DNA from: Chloroflexota bacterium
Lineage (GTDB): Bacteria; Chloroflexota; UBA11872
NCBI GenBank assembly: GCA_028874315.1
Contig: JAPPKM010000131.1
Location: forward strand, 1 to 33,585
DNA: 33,585 nucleotides
Reading direction: 5' to 3'
Below are positions 7,635 to 26,566 of the stretch, one piece after another. How positions within the stretch are numbered: the stretch's first letter is position 1; each line of letters opens with the position of its first letter. Both the position numbers and the translations under genes were made by a program. The notes under the pieces were generated by a model. The model was not told where the DNA came from and did no database searches. It was given only the letters and a program-made list of their open reading frames with translations.

Positions 7635-7835
7635 TCGTCCTAGCGCCTGAGCGACGGCTCAGTGGCGAAGGCAGGACGCTCGGCATTTCGCACGATCATC
7701 TCCATCCTCTGGATAGCAGGCAGACACGTGTTAGCGCCAACGGAGTCAGGGTATCGACTCAAGACCGGGAACTGCACCTGCGCCAGGCGATAGACTGTGC
7801 CAGGGACGACCATGGGCGGTAGAGGGAAAGACCGG

Positions 7836-8108
7836 ATGACGGTGGACCTGACCGCCATTGAGATCGAGCGTCGGCTGACCGCCATCGAGACCACGCTGGA
7901 GACCACGCTCCCGACCTTCGCAACGAAAGCCGATGTCCATTCGTTGAAGGCCGACATGCACGCGCTGAGGACCGAAATCCAGGCCTCGCGAGCCGAATGG
8001 AAGTCCGACCTCCACAGCCTGACCCGCTGGATGGTGATTGCCGTGCTTGGGTCAATTACTGCCGCGGCCACCATCACAGGATTGATTGTTCGGTTCATAG
8101 GCACCTGA
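7836..8108 (+). CDS. Small coiled-coil protein with C-terminal membrane anchor (copy 1)
   Basis: 90-aa protein of unknown function. I choose the ATG at 7836 (MTVDLTAIEIERRL) because a GAGGG ribosome site lies about 9 nt upstream and the two relatives in this window share this exact N-terminus. Residues 1-60 are heptad-like and charged, with the repeat unit TKADVHSLKADMHALR. About 20 hydrophobic residues follow (MVIAVLGSITAAATITGLIV), and the protein ends a few residues later. The predicted form is a cytosolic coiled coil tethered to the membrane. It resembles short CCDC90/DUF1640-like bacterial proteins. A shorter copy lies directly downstream and a third at 21707-21901. Confidence 0.7.
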   Translation: MTVDLTAIEIERRLTAIETTLETTLPTFATKADVHSLKADMHALRTEIQASRAEWKSDLHSLTRWMVIAVLGSITAAATITGLIVRFIGT

Positions 8109-8198
8109 GGCGGTGCGGCAGGGGCGGTGTGAGGCGTCGTCGCCACGCCAGACGCTAGGTTGAGCTTGGATCAATCATGGGCGGGAAAGGAAAACCGG

Positions 8199-8417
8199 AT
8201 GACGGTGGACTTGACCGCCATCGAGATTGAGCGTCGGCTGACTGCCATTGAGACCACGCTGCAGACGCTGGCAACAAAGGCCGACCTTCAGGCCATGCGT
8301 GCCGAGTGGAAGTCTGATCTCCACAATCTGACCCGCTGCATGGTCATTGCCGTGCTGGGATCGGTAACGGCCGCGGCCACCATTACCGGGTTATTCGTCC
8401 GGTTCGTCGGCGCCTGA
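8199..8417 (+). CDS. Small coiled-coil protein with C-terminal membrane anchor (copy 2)
   Basis: 72-aa paralogue of the preceding gene. The ATG at 8199 has AAGGA about 8 nt upstream and gives the shared start MTVDLTAIEIERRL. The coiled-coil part is 18 residues shorter than copy 1 (only one TKADLQAMRAEW unit), while the hydrophobic C-terminus (MVIAVLGSVTAAATITGLFV) is almost unchanged. A difference of about five helical turns would shorten the stalk but keep the anchor. Function unknown; the two copies may form hetero-oligomers. Confidence 0.7.
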   Translation: MTVDLTAIEIERRLTAIETTLQTLATKADLQAMRAEWKSDLHNLTRCMVIAVLGSVTAAATITGLFVRFVGA

Positions 8418-8460: not shown

Positions 8461-10074
8461 TCAGTCGTCCGACGGCTCGACCGCAAACGAATACAACTCT
8501 GCGTTCCTCATCACGAACCGCAGCCGCCGGTGCGGGACGAACCGGGTGTAGACGGTGCCGGAGTCGGCACTCTGGGGGAACGGCAGATTGGCGTCGCCCT
8601 GCCAGGTGACAGTGTGACGGACGCTGTCGCCGGTGAAGGAATCCGACTCCTGCAGTCCGCGACCGGGTAGCACCCGATCTCCGGCGTCGCGAACCTCGAC
8701 CTTGAGATAACCGCCGGTACCGCAGGCCGCGTTGATGACCAACCGGTCCCCCTCCGACACAAGCGGCTGTGTGGCCACCATCCCCTCGCGTCTTCCGCCG
8801 GCCCCGACAGAGACAAACCCATCGCGCCGCAGCTTGCCGATGCCCAGCGCATACCGGGGATCGCTCGCTGCACCTGCTGAAGAGTCTTTCGGCTCATTCT
8901 GATCCTCTGCGTACCAGAGATCGTGCTGCGAAGTCGCGCCGCCGAAGTAAACCCAGGTCTCGTCCCCCACGTTCAACATGCGAGGAATCCCGATCTGGTT
9001 GGCGCACCAGCTCCCCGGCTCCCCCAGGCCAATCCAGTCATGCGTGGGCGCCAGCCGTTCCCACTGGCGCCCGTCGCGGCTATTCACCAGTTCGACCGTT
9101 GACGTGTTGGACACCTGGTGAAACACGCCCAGGAACCCGATCCAATGCCCGCCCATACGAAACGGACGCATCCCGTAGAAGGCCACGTCCAGGTTGTCCA
9201 GCGCAGGGTCCGGCGCGAGGATCAGCCGCGGCTCGCTCCAGTTCACAAAGTCGCGGCTCTCGCACATGAAGACGCGGCGGACGACCCGCCGATTGGGTGT
9301 AGCCATCACCGCATCAAAGCTGGGCGCGCCGCCCACCATCGGCGCGTGAGTTGGCCGCGTGCGCGGCGCCAGTTCCATCAACGGGTGGCGCGTGACGATT
9401 CGATAAACACCGCTATCGGGATCGAATGTCGGAAATATCGTGTCGCCCAGCCGGTCGCCCAGCGACCCGAACCTGGGCACCTCATCCGCCGGCGTCCAGA
9501 GGATTCCATCTGGTGAGTACGCCAGCCGGATGTGCGCGCCCGGCGTCTCGTCGGCCACCCGGAAACCGGGCGGACCCAACTCGTAGAGCATCTTGTAGCG
9601 GCGCGCCGGTTCCTGCTCCAGCGGGTCGTCCAGCAGCGCCGGGCCCCAGACGTTTCCATACGTCTCGCTGCCGAAGACAATGTTGGTGTCGTGCCCGCCT
9701 TCCTCCACGATGCCCATGGCGGGCTTCTCCCAGTTCAGCCCGTCCGGCGATCGCGCATACATCACCCTGAACCGGCTGACGTGCCAGTCAATCATCGTCC
9801 CGCCCTCGCGCGCCAGCCTGTCGCGGTCCAGCGCCATGTCGGTGTACAGGCAGTGGAACCCGCCGTCGTCGTCCCGCCACAGCGCCCAGTCGTCCGCGCC
9901 GAAGTTGGTGAAGTGCTCCCAGGGCCGATCCAGTTGCAGCACCGGGTTCCGCTCGAGCCGCCTCGGCGCATGCACCGTGCGCCGAATGTTCTGGATCTCT
10001 TCGATCAGCCCGTTGTCGAAGAAGTACTGCGGCCTGTCACCGATGATCAGTTCGGTGGAGTCAAGCCCGGTCAC
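8461..10074 (-). CDS. Beta-propeller glycosidase-like protein 1
   Basis: Probable five-bladed beta-propeller protein, loosely like the GH32/43 fold, 537 aa from the GTG at 10074. The ORF track starts at 10191 inside the upstream gene. The GTG is preferred because AAGGAAGG lies 5 nt ahead of it and the paralogues begin at the matching motif (YFFDNGLIEE against LFLDLDEVAA). Repeated blade signatures such as VMYARSPDGLNWEKP, IRLAYSPDGILWTP and VELVNSRDGRQW are the S/P-DG-xxW turns of these propellers. The last ~90 residues form a separate beta-rich domain (LKVEVRDAGDRVLPG ... LRFVMRNAELYSFAVEP) also found in the two paralogues. No signal peptide. It ends an operon with an esterase-like hydrolase and an ADP-ribosylglycohydrolase. 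Reaction unknown; a glycan or glycoside substrate is inferred. Confidence 0.75.
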   Translation of the reverse strand: MTGLDSTELIIGDRPQYFFDNGLIEEIQNIRRTVHAPRRLERNPVLQLDRPWEHFTNFGADDWALWRDDDGGFHCLYTDMALDRDRLAREGGTMIDWHVSRFRVMYARSPDGLNWEKPAMGIVEEGGHDTNIVFGSETYGNVWGPALLDDPLEQEPARRYKMLYELGPPGFRVADETPGAHIRLAYSPDGILWTPADEVPRFGSLGDRLGDTIFPTFDPDSGVYRIVTRHPLMELAPRTRPTHAPMVGGAPSFDAVMATPNRRVVRRVFMCESRDFVNWSEPRLILAPDPALDNLDVAFYGMRPFRMGGHWIGFLGVFHQVSNTSTVELVNSRDGRQWERLAPTHDWIGLGEPGSWCANQIGIPRMLNVGDETWVYFGGATSQHDLWYAEDQNEPKDSSAGAASDPRYALGIGKLRRDGFVSVGAGGRREGMVATQPLVSEGDRLVINAACGTGGYLKVEVRDAGDRVLPGRGLQESDSFTGDSVRHTVTWQGDANLPFPQSADSGTVYTRFVPHRRLRFVMRNAELYSFAVEPSDD

Positions 10075-10079
10075 AGTTG

Positions 10080-10087
10080 CCTTCCTT
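10080..10087 (-). promoter_or_regulatory. Ribosome binding site deciding the GTG start of propeller protein 1
   Basis: AAGGAAGG on the minus strand sits 5 nt before GTG at 10074 and downstream of the stop of the alpha/beta hydrolase gene. It supports this start over the upstream ATGs inside the neighbouring gene. Confidence 0.65.
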
Positions 10088-10136
10088 ACCGGCGCGTTGC
10101 GGCCTGTGGCCGACTTCCGACTCTCAGCGCCGTCGG

Positions 10137-11228
10137 TCAACCCTGCGTCAGCTGCTCCACCAGCCATGGTTCGGCCGTCACTCCGTACCACTGGTGCTCC
10201 CCTGGCTGTACATCGTGCACAAGGCAGTCGCCGCCGTCGTGCAGTGCGTACGCCTCGCGCGTGATGGCCACCTGTTCGTACACGTTGTCCAGCCCCCGCG
10301 CCCCGTTCAGCGGATCCTCGTCGCCGGTCTCGATCAGCAGCGGACGTGGCGCGATCAGCGCGCCCAGGTCACCCATGTCCACGGCCTGCCACAACCCGGG
10401 AACGTAGTTGCAACCGCAGTTGCTGTTCAGGTCCAGCAGCGAGTCGCGATAGCCGTAGAAGTAGCCGCTCACCACCGCCGCGCAGATCCGGTCGTCCATC
10501 GCCGCCAGCCACAGGGTTTGCAGCCCCCCGCCGCTGAGCCCGGCGCACCCGATGCGCTCCGGATCGCAGTCGTCCCGAGTCATAACGTAGTCCACCAGCC
10601 GCATCAAATCCCAGGTCCACATGCCGGTCACGGTCTGCCCCAGCGAGATCGCCGCGAAATTCAGCGGCGTGCAGGTGGACCGCATGAACGATTCTTCGTC
10701 ATTCGCCTGCCCCACCGGTTCGCGTCGCTCGCCAAAGGCGCGGGCGTCGGACGCAAACACGATCAGTCCGGCTTGCGCATAGCGCTCCGCATAGGCGCCA
10801 TTGTGTTTCTCGATGGTGTCGGCCACGGCCGGAATATCGCGTCGACCCGCCGTCATGTTCTTGCCCCCGCTGCCGTGCCCGTGCGGTGCGATGACGACGG
10901 GGCGCCGCTCGCCGGCCTGCAGGTCGTCCGGCAACAGCGCATATAGGGGCATGACGACGCCCGGCTCAGTATGGATCTCCATCCGCTGACGCACGTAGCC
11001 GTCGCACTGAACCGACTCGGTTACGACGGACCCCGGATCCGCGAGCCGCAAGCTGTCGATCCCCGTAATCGACGACAAGTGCCGGCGCGTCTCCTGGCGC
11101 CACGCCTCAAAGGCTGCCACGCCGCTCGTGTCTACCGGCATCTGGCGCGCCTCGCGGTCGAACCGCGCCTGCAGTTCGGCATGAGCCGGATAGAAGCGAG
11201 TGACCGTGGGAACGCGAGGAGTCGCCAT
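10137..11228 (-). CDS. Alpha/beta hydrolase, acetyl-xylan-esterase or dienelactone-hydrolase type
   Basis: 363-aa cytosolic alpha/beta hydrolase. The nucleophile elbow is G-L-S232-G-G-G, the acid is probably D303 or D305 (TGDEDPL), and the catalytic His is H345 (GEHQWYG). VVIAPHGHGSGG (111-122) is the oxyanion strand and loop. The sequence resembles the large bacterial branch near acetyl xylan esterase and Abhydrolase_7 proteins, with a ~100-residue N-terminal extension typical of that group. It is the middle gene of a three-gene operon (87 nt after the ADP-ribosylglycohydrolase, 62 nt before propeller protein 1). De-esterification of a substrate handled by the propeller protein is a reasonable inference. 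No signal peptide is seen, so it should act inside the cell. Confidence 0.8.
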   Translation of the reverse strand: MATPRVPTVTRFYPAHAELQARFDREARQMPVDTSGVAAFEAWRQETRRHLSSITGIDSLRLADPGSVVTESVQCDGYVRQRMEIHTEPGVVMPLYALLPDDLQAGERRPVVIAPHGHGSGGKNMTAGRRDIPAVADTIEKHNGAYAERYAQAGLIVFASDARAFGERREPVGQANDEESFMRSTCTPLNFAAISLGQTVTGMWTWDLMRLVDYVMTRDDCDPERIGCAGLSGGGLQTLWLAAMDDRICAAVVSGYFYGYRDSLLDLNSNCGCNYVPGLWQAVDMGDLGALIAPRPLLIETGDEDPLNGARGLDNVYEQVAITREAYALHDGGDCLVHDVQPGEHQWYGVTAEPWLVEQLTQG

Positions 11229-15149: not shown

Positions 15150-16577
15150 CTAGGTCAGCGCGTAGGCGTGCAGCCTCGCGGCGCCGTGGATGTGGAATCT
15201 CAGGCGAACCTGCCGCCGACCGCAGGCGCCCAGTTCCGCGCCCTGCCAGCTGGCCGCAGCCCGCACATTATCGACCGCCAGCGGCACGCACTCCTCGCGG
15301 CTGAATCCGGGAATCACCTCGCCCGTCTCCGCGTCGAGCACTTCGACGTCCACCCAGCTCCGCCGCGCAATCACGTCCGCCACGTTCGCGTTCAACCGCG
15401 TGTCCGGCGCTATCGCCAGCGGCGTCGTCTCCAGCGACCCCGAAATCTCCCGGTCCACCGTCTGCATGCACGTGAACCCATCCAGCCGCAGCGTCGCCAG
15501 GCCCAGCTGCGTCAGTCGAACGGACCCACTCTTCCCGCCCCCGAACTCCTTGGGATAGTTCCCCGGCGGCCAGAGGCTCCAGTCCTCGCCCTGCCCGCTG
15601 TAGTAGATGTAGATGGTGTCGTCCTTGACGATGATGCGGTCGCCAATCACAAGGAATCCGGCGTCCCACGCGCCCCGCTCGCCCCGCGGGATCACCTTGT
15701 CGGTCAGGCAGATGCGCGAGAAATGCTCGCCGTCCTTGCTGACGGCCAGCCGCAAGTCCGCTGCGTACTGTCCGAACACCCCGAGCCCGTTGGGCACGTA
15801 CCAGCCGAACTCGTACACCGAAATCCAGCCCGTGCCGTACCGGTCCAGCGTCAGGAAGTGGTTCTCCTGCTCCAGCCCATCCTTGGGATCGAGAAACGGG
15901 TTGTCGGGACTGGACGTGAACTTCTCGACGCTTGGTCCGTAGGCGATGAACTTGCCGCGGACGGTTGCCGGCCCTGGCTTGGCCGCCGGTACACGTTCTT
16001 GCCAGATCAGGATGTATCGACGATCCGGGTCCGTGGCCTGCTCGTCCAGCGCCAGGACCACAATGTCCGGACCATGCGACAGCGCCGGCAGGTCGACGGC
16101 CGGGCCCACGGTCCAGTGAATGCCGTCCGGCGAGTACGCGGCACGCGCCGGCCCGCTCCCTACAAGGTCTTTCGTGACCATCTTGAACCGGCGCGCAGGG
16201 TCGGGCTCCGTCGGATCGCGAATTACCGCCCCCAGCATGTCCAGGCAGATGTTGTTGTCCTTGGACCCGTTGAACTCGAAAAGCCCCAACTTCGGCTTGA
16301 TCCAGCGGATGCCGTCCTCGCTGTAGGCATAGCCCATGCGCCGCCAGCGCAGGCGCTCCTGGTCGGCTCCCGTGTACCAGCACTTGAACAAGCCGTCGTC
16401 CGGGTCGTACAGCACCGTCCGCACCGACCACACACTGGCCCGCACCGCGTCCCACTCGTCCAGCCGCCCCACCGGCAGCACCGGATTCGCCGGATGCTTC
16501 GTCGCCTCGCACACCCGCTGCTCCACGTTATGCGTGGCCGCAACCTCGTCCAGGTCCAGAAACAGGTGTTTTGTCAT
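15150..16577 (-). CDS. Beta-propeller glycosidase-like protein 2
   Basis: 475-aa paralogue of the 8461-10074 and 25130-26566 proteins. It starts MTKHLFLDLDEVAA and shows the blade turns AYSEDGIRWIKP, AYSPDGIHWTVG and AVSKDGEHFSRI, as in five-bladed GH32/43-like propellers. YDPDDGLFKCWYTG fills a conserved first-blade strand. The last ~85 residues make the shared beta-rich tail (WVDVEVLDAETGEVIPGF ... RQVRLRFHIHGAARLHAYAL). There is no signal peptide, so it is probably cytosolic. It lies 105 nt downstream of a sulfatase and 80 nt upstream of a Rid protein, all on the minus strand. A role in breaking down a sulfated sugar compound is inferred, not shown. Confidence 0.75.
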   Translation of the reverse strand: MTKHLFLDLDEVAATHNVEQRVCEATKHPANPVLPVGRLDEWDAVRASVWSVRTVLYDPDDGLFKCWYTGADQERLRWRRMGYAYSEDGIRWIKPKLGLFEFNGSKDNNICLDMLGAVIRDPTEPDPARRFKMVTKDLVGSGPARAAYSPDGIHWTVGPAVDLPALSHGPDIVVLALDEQATDPDRRYILIWQERVPAAKPGPATVRGKFIAYGPSVEKFTSSPDNPFLDPKDGLEQENHFLTLDRYGTGWISVYEFGWYVPNGLGVFGQYAADLRLAVSKDGEHFSRICLTDKVIPRGERGAWDAGFLVIGDRIIVKDDTIYIYYSGQGEDWSLWPPGNYPKEFGGGKSGSVRLTQLGLATLRLDGFTCMQTVDREISGSLETTPLAIAPDTRLNANVADVIARRSWVDVEVLDAETGEVIPGFSREECVPLAVDNVRAAASWQGAELGACGRRQVRLRFHIHGAARLHAYALT

Positions 16578-21706: not shown

Positions 21707-21901
21707 CTACGTCCAAAACCGGCCGATCACCGAAGCGATCGTGCCGGCGAACATTGCCGCGGCCAGCACCGACCCAACCATCCACTTGATAAGGCGCGTC
21801 TCCAGGGCGTGCAAATCGGCCTTGGTCGCGACGCTGGCGGCCATCGCATCAATCCTGGACAGCCGGCGCTCAGTTTCCAGGGCGTGCAGCTCGACCGTCA
21901 T
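21707..21901 (-). CDS. Small coiled-coil protein with C-terminal membrane anchor (copy 3)
   Basis: 64-aa third member of the family seen at 7836-8417. The ATG at 21901 is preceded by GGAGG 5 nt upstream and gives MTVELHALETERRL, matching the MTVDLTAIEIERRL start of the other two. The coiled-coil unit VATKADLHALETRLIKWM leads into a hydrophobic end (VGSVLAAAMFAGTIASVIG). The track ORF adds a spurious 44-residue leader. It is convergent with the aldo/keto reductase gene and about 13 kb from the tandem pair. The conserved anchor but variable stalk length suggests a lineage-specific family. Confidence 0.7.
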   Translation of the reverse strand: MTVELHALETERRLSRIDAMAASVATKADLHALETRLIKWMVGSVLAAAMFAGTIASVIGRFWT

Positions 21902-22097
21902 CGGCTCCTCCATGAACCGGGATCCCGGATTCCTGTCGTCCAGACGATGGTGGCCCACCGCACCGCCCAGCAAGAGAGCCTGCAGAAATCCTAGCGCACG
22001 GCCCTCAATTCGAGCGCCAGAATCGTTGCGCAACTCGGCCTCACTCGGACCCGTCCCTCACGAGCTACGGCTGCCGCGTTGAACCCGTTAATCGAAT

Positions 22098-22141
22098 CGG
22101 GCCGCGGTCCCGGACAGAGGAGTCCGGGAGACCGCGGCCCG
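22098..22141 (-). terminator. Long GC-rich hairpin, likely transcription terminator
   Basis: An 18-nt arm (22098-22115) pairs perfectly with the facing arm (22122-22141), apart from a 2-nt AG bulge, around a 6-nt loop. It begins 18 nt after the stop of the SelW-like gene on the minus strand and is the strongest hairpin I noticed in the window. There is no good T-run on either side, so it may stop transcription weakly or protect the 3' end of the RNA. Confidence 0.5.
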
Positions 22142-22158: not shown

Positions 22159-22410
22159 CTACCCGGAAATCGCCGCGCTCACCAGCGGCAGAACCTCTCC
22201 ATCCTCCGCGTGACGCCCCAGCGCCTTCTTCGAGAACACGAGGTCGCCATCAACGACCACCTCGAACACGCCGCCGCCCGAAGGCATCAGCGTCATCTCG
22301 CCCACGTCGGTTCCATGCTCTCCCAGGATTTCTTCCGTCGCACGGACGGCTTTAGGGAGATAGTTTCATTGGCTGCAGTATTCGATCGAAACCCTGGCGC
22401 CGCGTCCCAT
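22159..22410 (-). CDS. SelW-like (Rdx family) selenoprotein with in-frame UGA (Sec15)
   Basis: 83-residue selenoprotein missed by the ORF track because its sixth-last motif position is TGA. The start is ATG at 22410 with GGGAG 6-7 nt upstream; the stop is TAG at 22159. Translation gives VSIEYCSQ-U-NYLPKA, the CxxU redox motif of the SelW/SelT/SelH/Rdx family (Cys12, Sec15 from TGA at 22368-22366). The rest is intact and typical: EEILGEHG, then the GGGVFEVVVDGDLVFSKKALGRHAEDGEVLPLV block. Known members are small thioredoxin-like-fold oxidoreductases, many with CxxC in place of CxxU. A hairpin fitting a bacterial SECIS follows the TGA. The gene lies 85 nt downstream of the 839-aa membrane protein on the same strand. 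The alternative is a nonsense change or a sequencing error at a Cys codon (TGC or TGT). The Sec biosynthesis genes (selA, selB, selC, selD) must be elsewhere. Confidence 0.85.
22320..22359 (-). promoter_or_regulatory. Candidate bacterial SECIS element of the SelW-like gene
   Basis: Within the coding region just after the UGA, CCGTC (22349-22345) and GACGG (22339-22335) form a perfect 5-bp stem closed by the loop CGUGC. An outer CTCCC/GGGAG stem (22359-22355 with 22324-22320) encloses it across an internal loop. The apical loop begins 21 nt after the UGA and has G as its second base. This agrees with the general bacterial SECIS model as I recall it (loop about 16-37 nt from UGA, G near the loop start). 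SelB binding is inferred. Confidence 0.65.
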
Positions 22411-22495
22411 GTTGCGCTCCCTCGTATTGCGGGTCGGCTGTTTCAACGGCCCTATTGTGGCATGGGCTCCGGGGATCCCCGCAACTTCATCCCCT

Positions 22496-25015
22496 TCACC
22501 CGCAGTCTGCCCGCACGTCAATCGGCAGGTCGATCTCGCCAAACCAGGACTCCTTAACCACGCCCAGCGTCAGCGTGTAGGGTCCCGGCGCGGACGGTGC
22601 CTGCACGCCTCCCTCAAAGGCCATCCCGGATCCCGTCCCGATTCCTGGCCCGCGATAGGTCTGAACCTGCAGCAGCCGCCCTTCCAGGTCCTCCAGCCGT
22701 TGCAGCGTGAATCGATCATCCGGCGTCGACCAGCGGTATCCGACGTGGTGATCCTGGCCCCACGGCTGAGCGCCGCTGTTGAGCGCCTGCACCTGGGCGA
22801 GCGTGGTCTCCCCGGCGCGTAGGCAGGACGGCAGCTTCAGGATGCGCAGGTCCGCGGCAAGCGGAGCAAGTGCCTCAGCCTGAGCCGCGCGAACCTCCAC
22901 CTCCGCAACGACCTCCGGCGCATCGTCAATCGCCAACCGCACGCGATAGCGCCCGGCAGTAGCCGGCGCACGGCTGCGAACCAGGTCGAGCGCCGGAGCC
23001 ACGGAGCGAGCGGCAATGACTGGCGTCAGCCGCAGCCGCACATCCTGTCGCAAGGCCTCGCCACCCCCCAATGGCTCCCAGGTCAATGTGCCTGACGCAA
23101 TCCGCTGACCTGCCGGCGGAACCCACGCGCGCTCTGCCGGGTTGGAAACTGTGACTGACACATCGATCAACGCATCGGCCGCAACTGCGGACGCCAGTGC
23201 CAGCCCGATCTCTAGATTGGACAACGAATTGATCGGTGGTGTACTCGGCGGACCCATGTAGGTCACGACAAATCGCTCGATCTCGTGCGTCGCTGCCGAC
23301 GGCTGCATGGCTCTGATCACGGCCAGCCAGCCCTCCGCCTGGTCCGGAGGCAAGAAGTCCCGGTCCAGTACGACCGTTCGGACTCCCAGAGCAAGCAGCG
23401 CCTCCAGAACATCGCGCCGGTCTTCGTCGTCGGCCCAGAACGTCATGCGCGCCAGCTGCGAGGTCCCACGCGGCTCGTACCCCGAATACCCATCCACGAT
23501 GGGCTGACGACCTCCGTTCAGCGTCCACAGCGCCCGCTGCACGTTTCGAACCTGCAGCTCGTGGATCCCTCGAACGTCCAAACCCAGCCGCTCCCCGGCC
23601 ATCGGAATAAAGGCCACCGGCCCGTCGGGCCCTTCGGCCAGCGCTGCTTGCAGGCCCCGGTTGTAAGGAATCGGCACACCCGCCGTCGGCACCCGCGCGG
23701 CTTCCACGATCAGAAGCCCGAACAGCCCCGCCGCGACGACATAGGCCGGCCAACGTGCGAGGCGGCGCCAGCGCATGAGCTGGTCAACAGCAACGGCGGC
23801 CAACAGCGCCGTGGCCAGCACCATCCCAACCGCCAGGAACTCCGGATTGCGCAGCGCGGTGAATCCCGGAACCACCTCGCGCAGGGCCGCGAACGGCAGC
23901 CGCACCCCCGTCAATTCGCCGTTCCACCAGAGTTCCGGTCCCAGCGTCAGGCCGAACATGAACAGTCCGCAGAAGCCCAGTCCGATGGCTACCGCGCGCA
24001 GACGCGGCGCCGCAACGCCGGCGGCCAATCCCACGCACGCGAGTGCGGCTGGGACCAGCGCGGGAAAGCTCACGCCGAATCCCTCAATGCGGTCGACAGC
24101 CGCCCGAAACCAGTAGTGCGAACGTGTCGCCACCGGCAGATAGTCCGGCAATCGCGCGCTGAGCTGCCGCGTCTCGTCAATGGTCCTCACCTCCTGGTTG
24201 TCCAGCCAGAACGCCAGATAGCCGGTCAGCAGTGGTACGAACGGAAGGGCCGCAACTGCCGTGCCCAAGACCGCGTGCACCGCCAGCCGCCGATCAACGC
24301 GCGGCAGGCGTCGCGAAACGACGGCCGCGCCGATCAGGACAAGCAGCGTCACCAGGGCGATGAACCCCAGGTATATGCCGGTCGCAAACTGAATCAACAC
24401 GCACAGCCACGCCCCGCTGAACTTCCACCAGGTCGGCCGCCGCAAGAACCAGAACCAGCAGGCCAGCGCCAGCGGCGTCCACCAGGCCATCAACAGGTGG
24501 TGATACTGAAAAAACTCCTGCGAGACGGGCGCAAAGCCAAAGACGAAGCCGGCCACCACGGCAGGCGCCCAGCGACCAAGCAGGAACCAGGCCGCTGCCG
24601 CCGCCGCCGCCGCATTCAGCACCGGACTGGCAATAGTCAGCACATTGATCCCGGCTCCCGGCCCGAACAACGTCGCCACCGGCACGTACACCGGCAGCCC
24701 GCCCAACAGAAGGTGCGTATAGAACACCGAGTCCCCCATGCCGTAATACATGAGGCCTTCGAAGAACCGCTGCGGTTCGCTCAACAGCGACACCCGCGCC
24801 CACTCCATCGAATAGAGAAACAGCACGTTGTCCTTGTGACCCAGGTGAAACTGGTCCCCAGGCAGCGGCGGCAGCGTGGCCAGCGCCGCCGCGATATACA
24901 ACGCCCCCGCGGCCGCCAGCTGCAAGGGCCATCGCAGCCGCCCGGCGGCCAGCAAGCGCAGCCGGACCGGGCGAGGCCCCACGCTTCGTTTATCGGGCTC
25001 TGCGACGAACGACAT
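22496..25015 (-). CDS. Large polytopic membrane protein with C-terminal beta-rich region
   Basis: 839-aa integral membrane protein, possibly a GT-C-fold (YfhO-like) glycosyltransferase relative, but no clear family signature. About ten to twelve hydrophobic segments fall in residues 25-430. Extramembrane loops are rich in aromatic residues, including a long one with DNVLFLYSMEW and RFFEGLMYYGMGDSVFYTHLL, reminiscent of GT-C first loops (acidic residue at D62). Residues ~440-590 look like an alpha/beta external domain (GPVAFIPMAGERLGLDVRG, VDGYSGYEP). Residues ~600-839 are beta-strand-rich and resemble two Ig-like sandwiches (VSVTVSNPAERAWVPPAGQ; SAPGPYTLTLGVVKESWFGEIDLP). It may add or handle a lipid-linked sugar at the cell surface; this is an inference. 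It lies upstream of the SelW-like gene on the same strand. Confidence 0.7.
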   Translation of the reverse strand: MSFVAEPDKRSVGPRPVRLRLLAAGRLRWPLQLAAAGALYIAAALATLPPLPGDQFHLGHKDNVLFLYSMEWARVSLLSEPQRFFEGLMYYGMGDSVFYTHLLLGGLPVYVPVATLFGPGAGINVLTIASPVLNAAAAAAAAWFLLGRWAPAVVAGFVFGFAPVSQEFFQYHHLLMAWWTPLALACWFWFLRRPTWWKFSGAWLCVLIQFATGIYLGFIALVTLLVLIGAAVVSRRLPRVDRRLAVHAVLGTAVAALPFVPLLTGYLAFWLDNQEVRTIDETRQLSARLPDYLPVATRSHYWFRAAVDRIEGFGVSFPALVPAALACVGLAAGVAAPRLRAVAIGLGFCGLFMFGLTLGPELWWNGELTGVRLPFAALREVVPGFTALRNPEFLAVGMVLATALLAAVAVDQLMRWRRLARWPAYVVAAGLFGLLIVEAARVPTAGVPIPYNRGLQAALAEGPDGPVAFIPMAGERLGLDVRGIHELQVRNVQRALWTLNGGRQPIVDGYSGYEPRGTSQLARMTFWADDEDRRDVLEALLALGVRTVVLDRDFLPPDQAEGWLAVIRAMQPSAATHEIERFVVTYMGPPSTPPINSLSNLEIGLALASAVAADALIDVSVTVSNPAERAWVPPAGQRIASGTLTWEPLGGGEALRQDVRLRLTPVIAARSVAPALDLVRSRAPATAGRYRVRLAIDDAPEVVAEVEVRAAQAEALAPLAADLRILKLPSCLRAGETTLAQVQALNSGAQPWGQDHHVGYRWSTPDDRFTLQRLEDLEGRLLQVQTYRGPGIGTGSGMAFEGGVQAPSAPGPYTLTLGVVKESWFGEIDLPIDVRADCG

Positions 25016-25129: not shown

Positions 25130-26566
25130 ATGGGCACTGAACTAATGCACCTCGGCTCGCGCAAACACCTCTTCATCGACCTCTCCCTGGCCGACCACAC
25201 GTCCAACGTGACCCTCGGCGTCAATCCCCCGCGGCTGGGCGGCATCGCCATCGGTCGCGACCGCGCCTGGGAGCATCACATCCACTTCCAGAACACCGTC
25301 CTCGACGACAACGGCCTGGGCCGCTGCTGGTACCTCGCGTCGATAATCCGCAGGGGACTGGAGTCCGCGCGGTTTGGCTACGCGGAGTCCGAGGACGGGC
25401 GTCACTGGCGCAAGCCCAACCTCGGCTTGGTCGAGCTCAACGGCCGGCGCGACATGAACCTCATCCCGCCCAAGCCCAAGCGCTCCAACGTCTTCATCGA
25501 CCCCACGGCGCCTCCCGCAGAGCGCTACAAGACCTTTGGCCTCAGCCTCGATGGCGATCCCGGAGGCGATGGCTACGGCGTCTTCGCTTCCCCCGACGGC
25601 TACGTCTTCCGCGAGCTTGGCTGCAACGGCCTCCGGCTTGCCGGCGACACCCAGAACATGGCCTTCTGGGACGACCGCATCGGACGCTACGTCGCCTACT
25701 TCCGGGGCTTCTCCCACCATCCCGACGGCCGTCGCCGCCGCGCGGTCGCCCGCTGGGAAACCGACGACCTCACCAGCCGCGAGGGCTGGGACCTGTCGAA
25801 CGAGGAGAGCGACCGCCACATCATCAACCAGCTGCCCATCGTCATCGCCTGCGACGACGACGACCCGCCTGACATGGACATCTACACCCCGTCTGTCGTC
25901 AAGTACCCAGAGGCTGAGGACGTCTACCTCGCCACCATGTCCATGTACCACCACTTCACCCCCGACGAGATGGACGACACAGACCCGCCCCGCAACGACG
26001 GCCTTATGGACATCCAGCTCGCCGTCAGCCGTGACGGCATCTCCTGGGACCGCCCCGACCGCCGCCCCTACGTCGGCATCGACGCCGAAGGCCCCGGCCA
26101 GCGCATGTGCTACGCCGTCCAGGGCATCCTGGTCCGCGGCGACACCGTCCTCCAGTACCACACCGCCTACGACCAGTCCCACGGCCACAAGCGCCAGAAC
26201 AACCCCGGCGGCGTCATCCGCTGGACCGAACAGCGCTTGGATGGCTTCGTCAGCGCCAACTTCGCCTACACCGGCGGCGAACTCGTCACCCGGCCAATCA
26301 CCTTCGACGGGTCCAAACTGATCCTCAACGTCGACGCCTCAGCCTCCGGCGAAGGCCGGGTCGAAATCCAGGACGCCCACGGCCGCCCAATCCAGGGCCG
26401 CACCCTCGCCGACTGCGACCGCATCCTCGGCAACTACCTCCGCCACCCCGTCACCTGGGGCGGCGACCCAGACCTCGGTGTACCCCCCAACACCCCCATC
26501 CGCCTCCGCCTCGCCCTCCGCAGCGCCCGCCTCTTCGCGCTGCAATTCGCCGGAGCGAGCATGTAG
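25130..26566 (+). CDS. Beta-propeller glycosidase-like protein 3
   Basis: 478-aa third member of the propeller family in this window. A strong GGAGGTG site lies 5 nt before the ATG. It begins with the family motif KHLFIDLSLADHTSNV. Blade turns are visible as AESEDGRHWRKP, FASPDGYVFRE and AVSRDGISWDRP, and CWYLASI matches CWYTG in copy 2. The beta-rich tail (GRVEIQDAHGRPIQGRTLADCD ... RLRLALRSARLFALQF) matches the other two copies. No signal peptide. It is monocistronic on plus, divergent from the 839-aa membrane protein. Reaction unknown; the family is presumably active on glycosides or acts as a sugar-binding protein. Confidence 0.75.
   Translation: MGTELMHLGSRKHLFIDLSLADHTSNVTLGVNPPRLGGIAIGRDRAWEHHIHFQNTVLDDNGLGRCWYLASIIRRGLESARFGYAESEDGRHWRKPNLGLVELNGRRDMNLIPPKPKRSNVFIDPTAPPAERYKTFGLSLDGDPGGDGYGVFASPDGYVFRELGCNGLRLAGDTQNMAFWDDRIGRYVAYFRGFSHHPDGRRRRAVARWETDDLTSREGWDLSNEESDRHIINQLPIVIACDDDDPPDMDIYTPSVVKYPEAEDVYLATMSMYHHFTPDEMDDTDPPRNDGLMDIQLAVSRDGISWDRPDRRPYVGIDAEGPGQRMCYAVQGILVRGDTVLQYHTAYDQSHGHKRQNNPGGVIRWTEQRLDGFVSANFAYTGGELVTRPITFDGSKLILNVDASASGEGRVEIQDAHGRPIQGRTLADCDRILGNYLRHPVTWGGDPDLGVPPNTPIRLRLALRSARLFALQFAGASM

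Follow-up and report, generated by a model that had tools for sequence, protein, structure and literature searches.

A predicted SelW-like selenoprotein gene with an in-frame UGA codon in a Chloroflexota lineage

A 2005 study of the Sargasso Sea reported SelW-like selenoproteins with a CxxU motif (PMC1088965), and SelW-like proteins formed the most abundant family of the GOS survey, in which 427 sequences had Sec and 56 had Cys (PMC2398784). The initial annotation of the DNA considered here had likewise noted SelW-like selenoproteins in marine metagenomes. Among Sec-using organisms, Cys forms of the bacterial SelW-like proteins are scarce, and three selenoproteins have been listed for Chloroflexi (PMC1794560). 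Eukaryotic SECIS elements sit in the 3′ UTR (PMC1088965). The published model of the bacterial element (bSECIS) describes a loop of 3 to 9 nt on a stem of 4 to 16 bp, with a G in the first two loop positions and the loop 16 to 37 nt past the UGA (PMC13188914).

The window, i.e., the whole stretch of DNA that was analyzed, comprises 33,585 nt of a contig from a Chloroflexota metagenome-assembled genome (MAG). Its minus strand at 22410-22159 very probably (probability of about 0.96) encodes a SelW-like selenoprotein in which UGA codon 15 would be read as selenocysteine by means of a downstream hairpin and SelB; Sec insertion, expression, and a redox role are predictions from the sequence. The features at the locus are as follows.

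22159..22410, minus strand: putative SelW/Rdx-family selenoprotein gene of 83 aa with predicted Sec at residue 15, ATG start, and TAG stop (translation with TGA as U; PF10262, NF041051, and TIGR02174)
22366..22368, minus strand: in-frame TGA at codon 15, predicted to be read as selenocysteine in C12-x-x-U15 (TGA in 96 of 96 stop-bearing loci; Cys in stop-free homologs)
22417..22423, minus strand: GAGGGAG ribosome-binding site, 6 nt 5′ of the ATG (sequence; similar purine-rich site in relatives)
22335..22349, minus strand: bSECIS-type apical stem-loop CCGUC-CGUGC-GACGG, with stem 22349-22345 paired to 22339-22335 and loop 22344-22340 (fold, synonymous-codon null, covariation)
22099..22140, minus strand: G+C-rich long palindromic hairpin directly 3′ of the stop codon, without a T run (fold of -48 kcal/mol, z of -6.95)

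The start codon lies at 22410-22408 and the final TAG at 22161-22159. With TGA translated as U, the product is MGRGARVSIEYCSQUNYLPKAVRATEEILGEHGTDVGEMTLMPSGGGVFEVVVDGDLVFSKKALGRHAEDGEVLPLVSAAISG. Retranslation of the minus strand confirmed the coordinates, the 83-residue length, and the U15 given by the initial annotation, and showed that the peptide quoted there lacked its first six residues (MGRGAR). The good ribosome site and the missing entry in the ORF track that it reported were likewise found: GAGGGAG recurs in similar form in relatives, and no ORF of at least 60 aa is listed in the SelW frame. The energy of the hairpin that follows the stop codon is that of a 78-nt stretch. Intrinsic-terminator prediction made no call at this hairpin, which is possibly a transcript end or a processing signal.

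Within the order, 22 of 24 genomes carry SelW, each time with TGA. Across 84,980 species genomes, a scan whose patterns gave TGA no preference returned 74 SelW loci, with hosts in Chloroflexota, Gemmatimonadota, Actinomycetota, Planctomycetota, Acidobacteriota, Desulfobulbaceae, and other groups. When both searches were pooled (they overlap in part, and some genes are counted twice), the homologous loci in which codon 15 is a stop numbered 96; every one had TGA, and none had TAA or TAG. A family match was present in 186 of 400 sampled Chloroflexota genomes; among the matches listed, most had one internal TGA, and 29, counted by hand, had none. Cys occupied the Sec position in all 14 stop-free homologs that were read, and such pairing of putative Sec with Cys at codon 15 is the classical mark by which selenoproteins are recognized. 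The final stop codon of the SelW gene is also TGA in five relatives (L024, L031, L036, L041, and L056), so UGA would have two meanings within one gene. This dual use would be as expected of hairpin-directed decoding.

The hairpin itself has a CGUGC loop located 21 nt past the UGA, with a G at loop position 2 and a 5-bp stem, and thus fits the bSECIS model when judged on loop, stem, loop G, and spacing. On its own it is unremarkable: its fold z is about -1.1, and a full stem in this register (register B) or in a second one (register C) also arises in 18% of synonymous recodings of the window. The window hairpin alone is not stronger than expected; the evidence for it is evolutionary. The full 54-nt stretch was available for 95 loci, which reduced to 67 distinct sequences. 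A full 5-bp stem in either register was formed by 85% of these 67 homologs, against 15.6% ± 4.4 under synonymous recoding. Relatedness was limited by choosing 32 representatives with <75% nucleotide identity, of which 30 formed the complete stem in one register or the other; the expectation was 5.9, and none of 5,000 synonymous recodings reached 30. Both registers were picked after the data had been seen, which brings some inflation, and the null was also allowed both. Covariation among 27 register-B sequences was 0.470, against 0.174 ± 0.030 in shuffled alignments and 0.011 to 0.143 in slid structures, and compensatory changes on both sides occurred at four of the five stem pairs; selecting these sequences for at least four of five register-B pairs favors the count of paired cells but does not in itself favor compensatory changes. 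In L115, the most distant homolog, the same stem is built from different letters, UUGAC-CGUGU-GUCAA. The initial annotation had proposed bSECISearch for this region; a hairpin of bSECIS type is found there and covaries. Two further pairings were considered. An outer stem, UCUCCC/GGGAGA, occurs in the window and was left out of the element because relatives do not keep it. An inner pairing, UCCGU-GCG-ACGGA, is the first choice of RNAfold in longer stretches of the window; divergent homologs keep register B instead.

A selenocysteine system, predicted for this organism by the initial annotation, was recovered in all but one of its genes. The MAG (3.34 Mb, 206 contigs, 86.6% complete) contains selA (513 bits), selB (322 bits), and selD (368 bits), all above curated cut-offs; selC is not among its contigs. 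A search with RF01852 found no tRNA-Sec in the MAG, where the best match, on C68 (48.6 bits), was rejected as tRNA-Ser(UGA), and no tRNA genes were found near selA, selB, and selD. By synteny, contig C145 stops 198 nt short of the position of selC in a close relative (G009), so an assembly gap would account for the missing gene. Each of the family's 18 other genomes carries a tRNA-Sec above the cut-off (70 to 73 bits), with anticodon TCA in those checked with ARAGORN. Elsewhere in the order, G022 (89% complete) has SelW with UGA and selA and yielded no tRNA-Sec above the cut-off, G019 has selA and selC without SelW, and selA, selC, and SelW are all absent from G023.

Other genes of the MAG also carry in-frame TGA codons. 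Its selD (L017; G000:C136:70328-71254, minus strand) has one in GAGUACK, at what we take to be the catalytic Cys site, so that the selenophosphate synthetase is itself likely a selenoprotein. TGA lies inside 6 of the 13 AhpC/TSA-family matches, and three of these Prx-like genes, when read, placed U in active-site-like contexts (TWULSC, TPGU, and TWUPNC) with strong hairpins of 7 to 8 bp downstream.

G000:C134:5443-5823: candidate Prx-like selenoprotein (L207)
G000:C58:31626-32000: candidate Prx-like selenoprotein (L208)
G000:C205:1518-1898: candidate Prx-like selenoprotein (L209)

The three further TGA-bearing matches lie on C53, C152, and C126. The selenoproteome of the MAG may be rich.

Because selC is not in the MAG contigs and decoding is here predicted from sequence, UGA might be thought to specify some other amino acid, e.g., Trp through a code change or a near-cognate suppressor. 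Such a reading is highly improbable given that stop-free homologs have Cys and not Trp at codon 15, that UGA also serves as the normal stop of the SelW gene in several relatives, that the genome has selA, selB, and selD together with a SECIS-like hairpin, and that every other family genome has selC.

Selection on the sequence past the TGA bears on a different explanation, in which the codon disables, or is a sequencing or assembly error in, a former CxxC gene. After the TGA, the window differs from L044 by 0 nonsynonymous and 17 synonymous differences, from L024 by 1 and 16, and from L028 by 3.5 and 20.5, respectively, which shows that purifying selection acts beyond the TGA among close relatives. 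Single in-frame stops in metagenome assemblies are often errors, and standard ORF calling finds nothing at the SelW locus; a pseudogene or base error is nevertheless scarcely credible, with almost no amino acid change past the TGA despite synonymous divergence and with TGA in every stop-bearing locus across independent assemblies and several phyla. A base error, against which the initial annotation had advised a check, is excluded because the TGA is identical in all of these loci. The relatives also lack the other disabling changes that would mark a pseudogene, apart from one TAG upstream of the motif in L039, from a single fragmented MAG (G021).

The Rdx-family identity proposed at the outset was upheld by both sequence and fold. 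With Cys written for U, the protein matched PF10262 (Rdx) with an E value of 1.4e-19 and 70.5 bits against a cut-off of 22.6, TIGR02174 with 51.6 bits against 34.2, and NF041051 narrowly, with 90.9 bits against 88; all three curated cut-offs were passed by the window protein as a whole protein. An AlphaFold model built with 23 homologs had a mean pLDDT of 91.4 and placed the CxxU motif between a strand at residues 5 to 12 and a helix at residues 18 to 32. In the 23 aligned sequences, neither C12 nor position 15 varies, and the window motif is C12-S-Q-U15. The best PDB matches of the model were SelW-related proteins with TM scores of 0.8 to 0.9 (approximately 0.87 against 2fa8 and 0.89 against 2obk), with thioredoxins next. 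In the model, the Rdx domain runs across the UGA, with the first strand and C12 before it and the remainder after it. It is normal for some ribosomes to terminate at a Sec UGA, but a true stop, leaving a 14-residue leader and a downstream part translated separately or not at all, is barely conceivable where the modeled domain is continuous across the codon, no start codon yields a listed ORF after it, and conservation extends on both sides.

For the selenoprotein reading, the following course can be proposed. A ribosome arriving at UGA codon 15 would encounter a hairpin that begins 16 nt downstream within the coding sequence and that would recruit SelB with Sec-tRNA(Sec), the latter presumably made by SelA with selenophosphate from SelD. 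Selenocysteine would then be inserted at the UGA in place of termination. The predicted product is a thioredoxin-fold protein in which C12-x-x-U15 closes the first strand, directly before the first helix, and would form a thiol/selenol redox center that probably passes electrons to a partner.

The hairpin occurs in two positions relative to the UGA. Of the 67 distinct sequences, 50 are of the register-B type and 12 are of register C, in which a CGUGA loop lies 17 nt past the UGA, four bases nearer than in register B; five (L080, L082, L083, L090, and L102) fully fit neither. Register C is found mostly in actinobacterial-type sequences (L058, L069, L072, and others) and in L038 of G022, from the same order as the window. 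It seems somewhat more likely than not that, in the course of evolution, the SelW hairpin shifted by four nucleotides against an unchanged alignment of UGA and protein, with register B in the majority, including the window, and register C in the actinobacterial-type sequences and G022. Three sequences (L056, L063, and L085) can form both registers and could be intermediates. A two-register hairpin inside one family may be a less known feature. If true, the shift would be a natural experiment on the bSECIS requirements of SelB, and the two registers may help to sharpen the definition of the bacterial SECIS element.

The nearest named records of the SelW loci are Chloroflexi/Chloroflexota MAGs, and several isolates among the closest records probably come from sponge microbiomes; a search of the literature on selenoproteins of sponge Chloroflexota found nothing relevant. 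A conserved operon around selW was considered and rejected, as the genes on either side are not the same in genus 1, G018, and genus 2: named by eye, they include a DNA polymerase I-like ORF in G018 and FtsY-like and glycolate-oxidase-like ORFs in genus 2. The MAG also contains another SelW copy (L041; G000:C43:334-582), on a 4.9-kb contig. It was rejected as a true duplication; the contig shares 98.4% identity with the G017/RHO1 locus of another species and has the same neighbor gene, and therefore looks like sequence admixed from a related strain.

Within the window, the gene at 22496-25015 (minus strand) encodes an 839-aa protein that appears multispanning by eye and has no Pfam match; it is missing between selW and the gene at 25130 in several close relatives. 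Large proteins encoded at 8461-10191 (minus), 15150-16577 (minus), and 25130-26566 (plus) appear by eye to be paralogs and are perhaps glycosidase-like; a Pfam scan of the latter two gave no match. Similar small ORFs at 7797-8108 (plus), 8160-8417 (plus), and 21707-22033 (minus) (MTVDLTAIEIERRLTAIETTL... / MTVELHALETERRLSRIDAMAAS...) form a repeated small family with a membrane-like segment at the C terminus, and a Pfam scan of the 21707-22033 product gave no match.

These findings show that a Chloroflexota lineage, sampled in two genera, retains a selenocysteine system that apparently works and has several candidate selenoproteins. They also show that gene calling from start to stop misses a small redox protein that is among the most conserved of this lineage. 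As the SelW family is not new, the value lies in annotation and in knowing which organisms use selenium. A literature search found no description of SelW from this lineage, which does not in itself prove its absence from the literature.

In comparison with solved structures, the window protein shares its fold with the SelW-related proteins 2FA8, 2OBK, 2OKA, 2OJL, 2P0G, and 3DEX (TM of 0.8 to 0.9), and a sequence comparison likewise matched it to SelW-related proteins of known structure. The six proteins have Cys for Sec, as seen in the 2FA8 and 3DEX alignments, and do not need UGA decoding, whereas the window gene has a predicted Sec codon. Mouse SelW (2NPB) belongs to the same family and aligns by sequence over residues 7 to 66, but the match is weak (E value of 0.007, TM of 0.67). 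Among profiles, the protein meets the cut-off of TIGR02174 (CXXU_selWTH); NF041051 (SelT/SelW/SelH family (seleno)protein, SelTWH_Campy), passed narrowly, refers by name to Campylobacterota and was passed by 2 of 400 Chloroflexota genomes. Like the SelW-like proteins of the Sargasso Sea and GOS data, the predicted product is a small Rdx/thioredoxin-like protein with CxxU and UGA for U, followed just 3′ of the UGA by a stem-loop with a G in a small apical loop, and Sec forms dominate over few Cys forms. It differs from them in host only: here the form is genus- and family-wide, within one lineage of Chloroflexota. With CxxU SelW known since 2005 and SelW-like proteins the commonest GOS family, the window gene thus adds a new member to a family already known.
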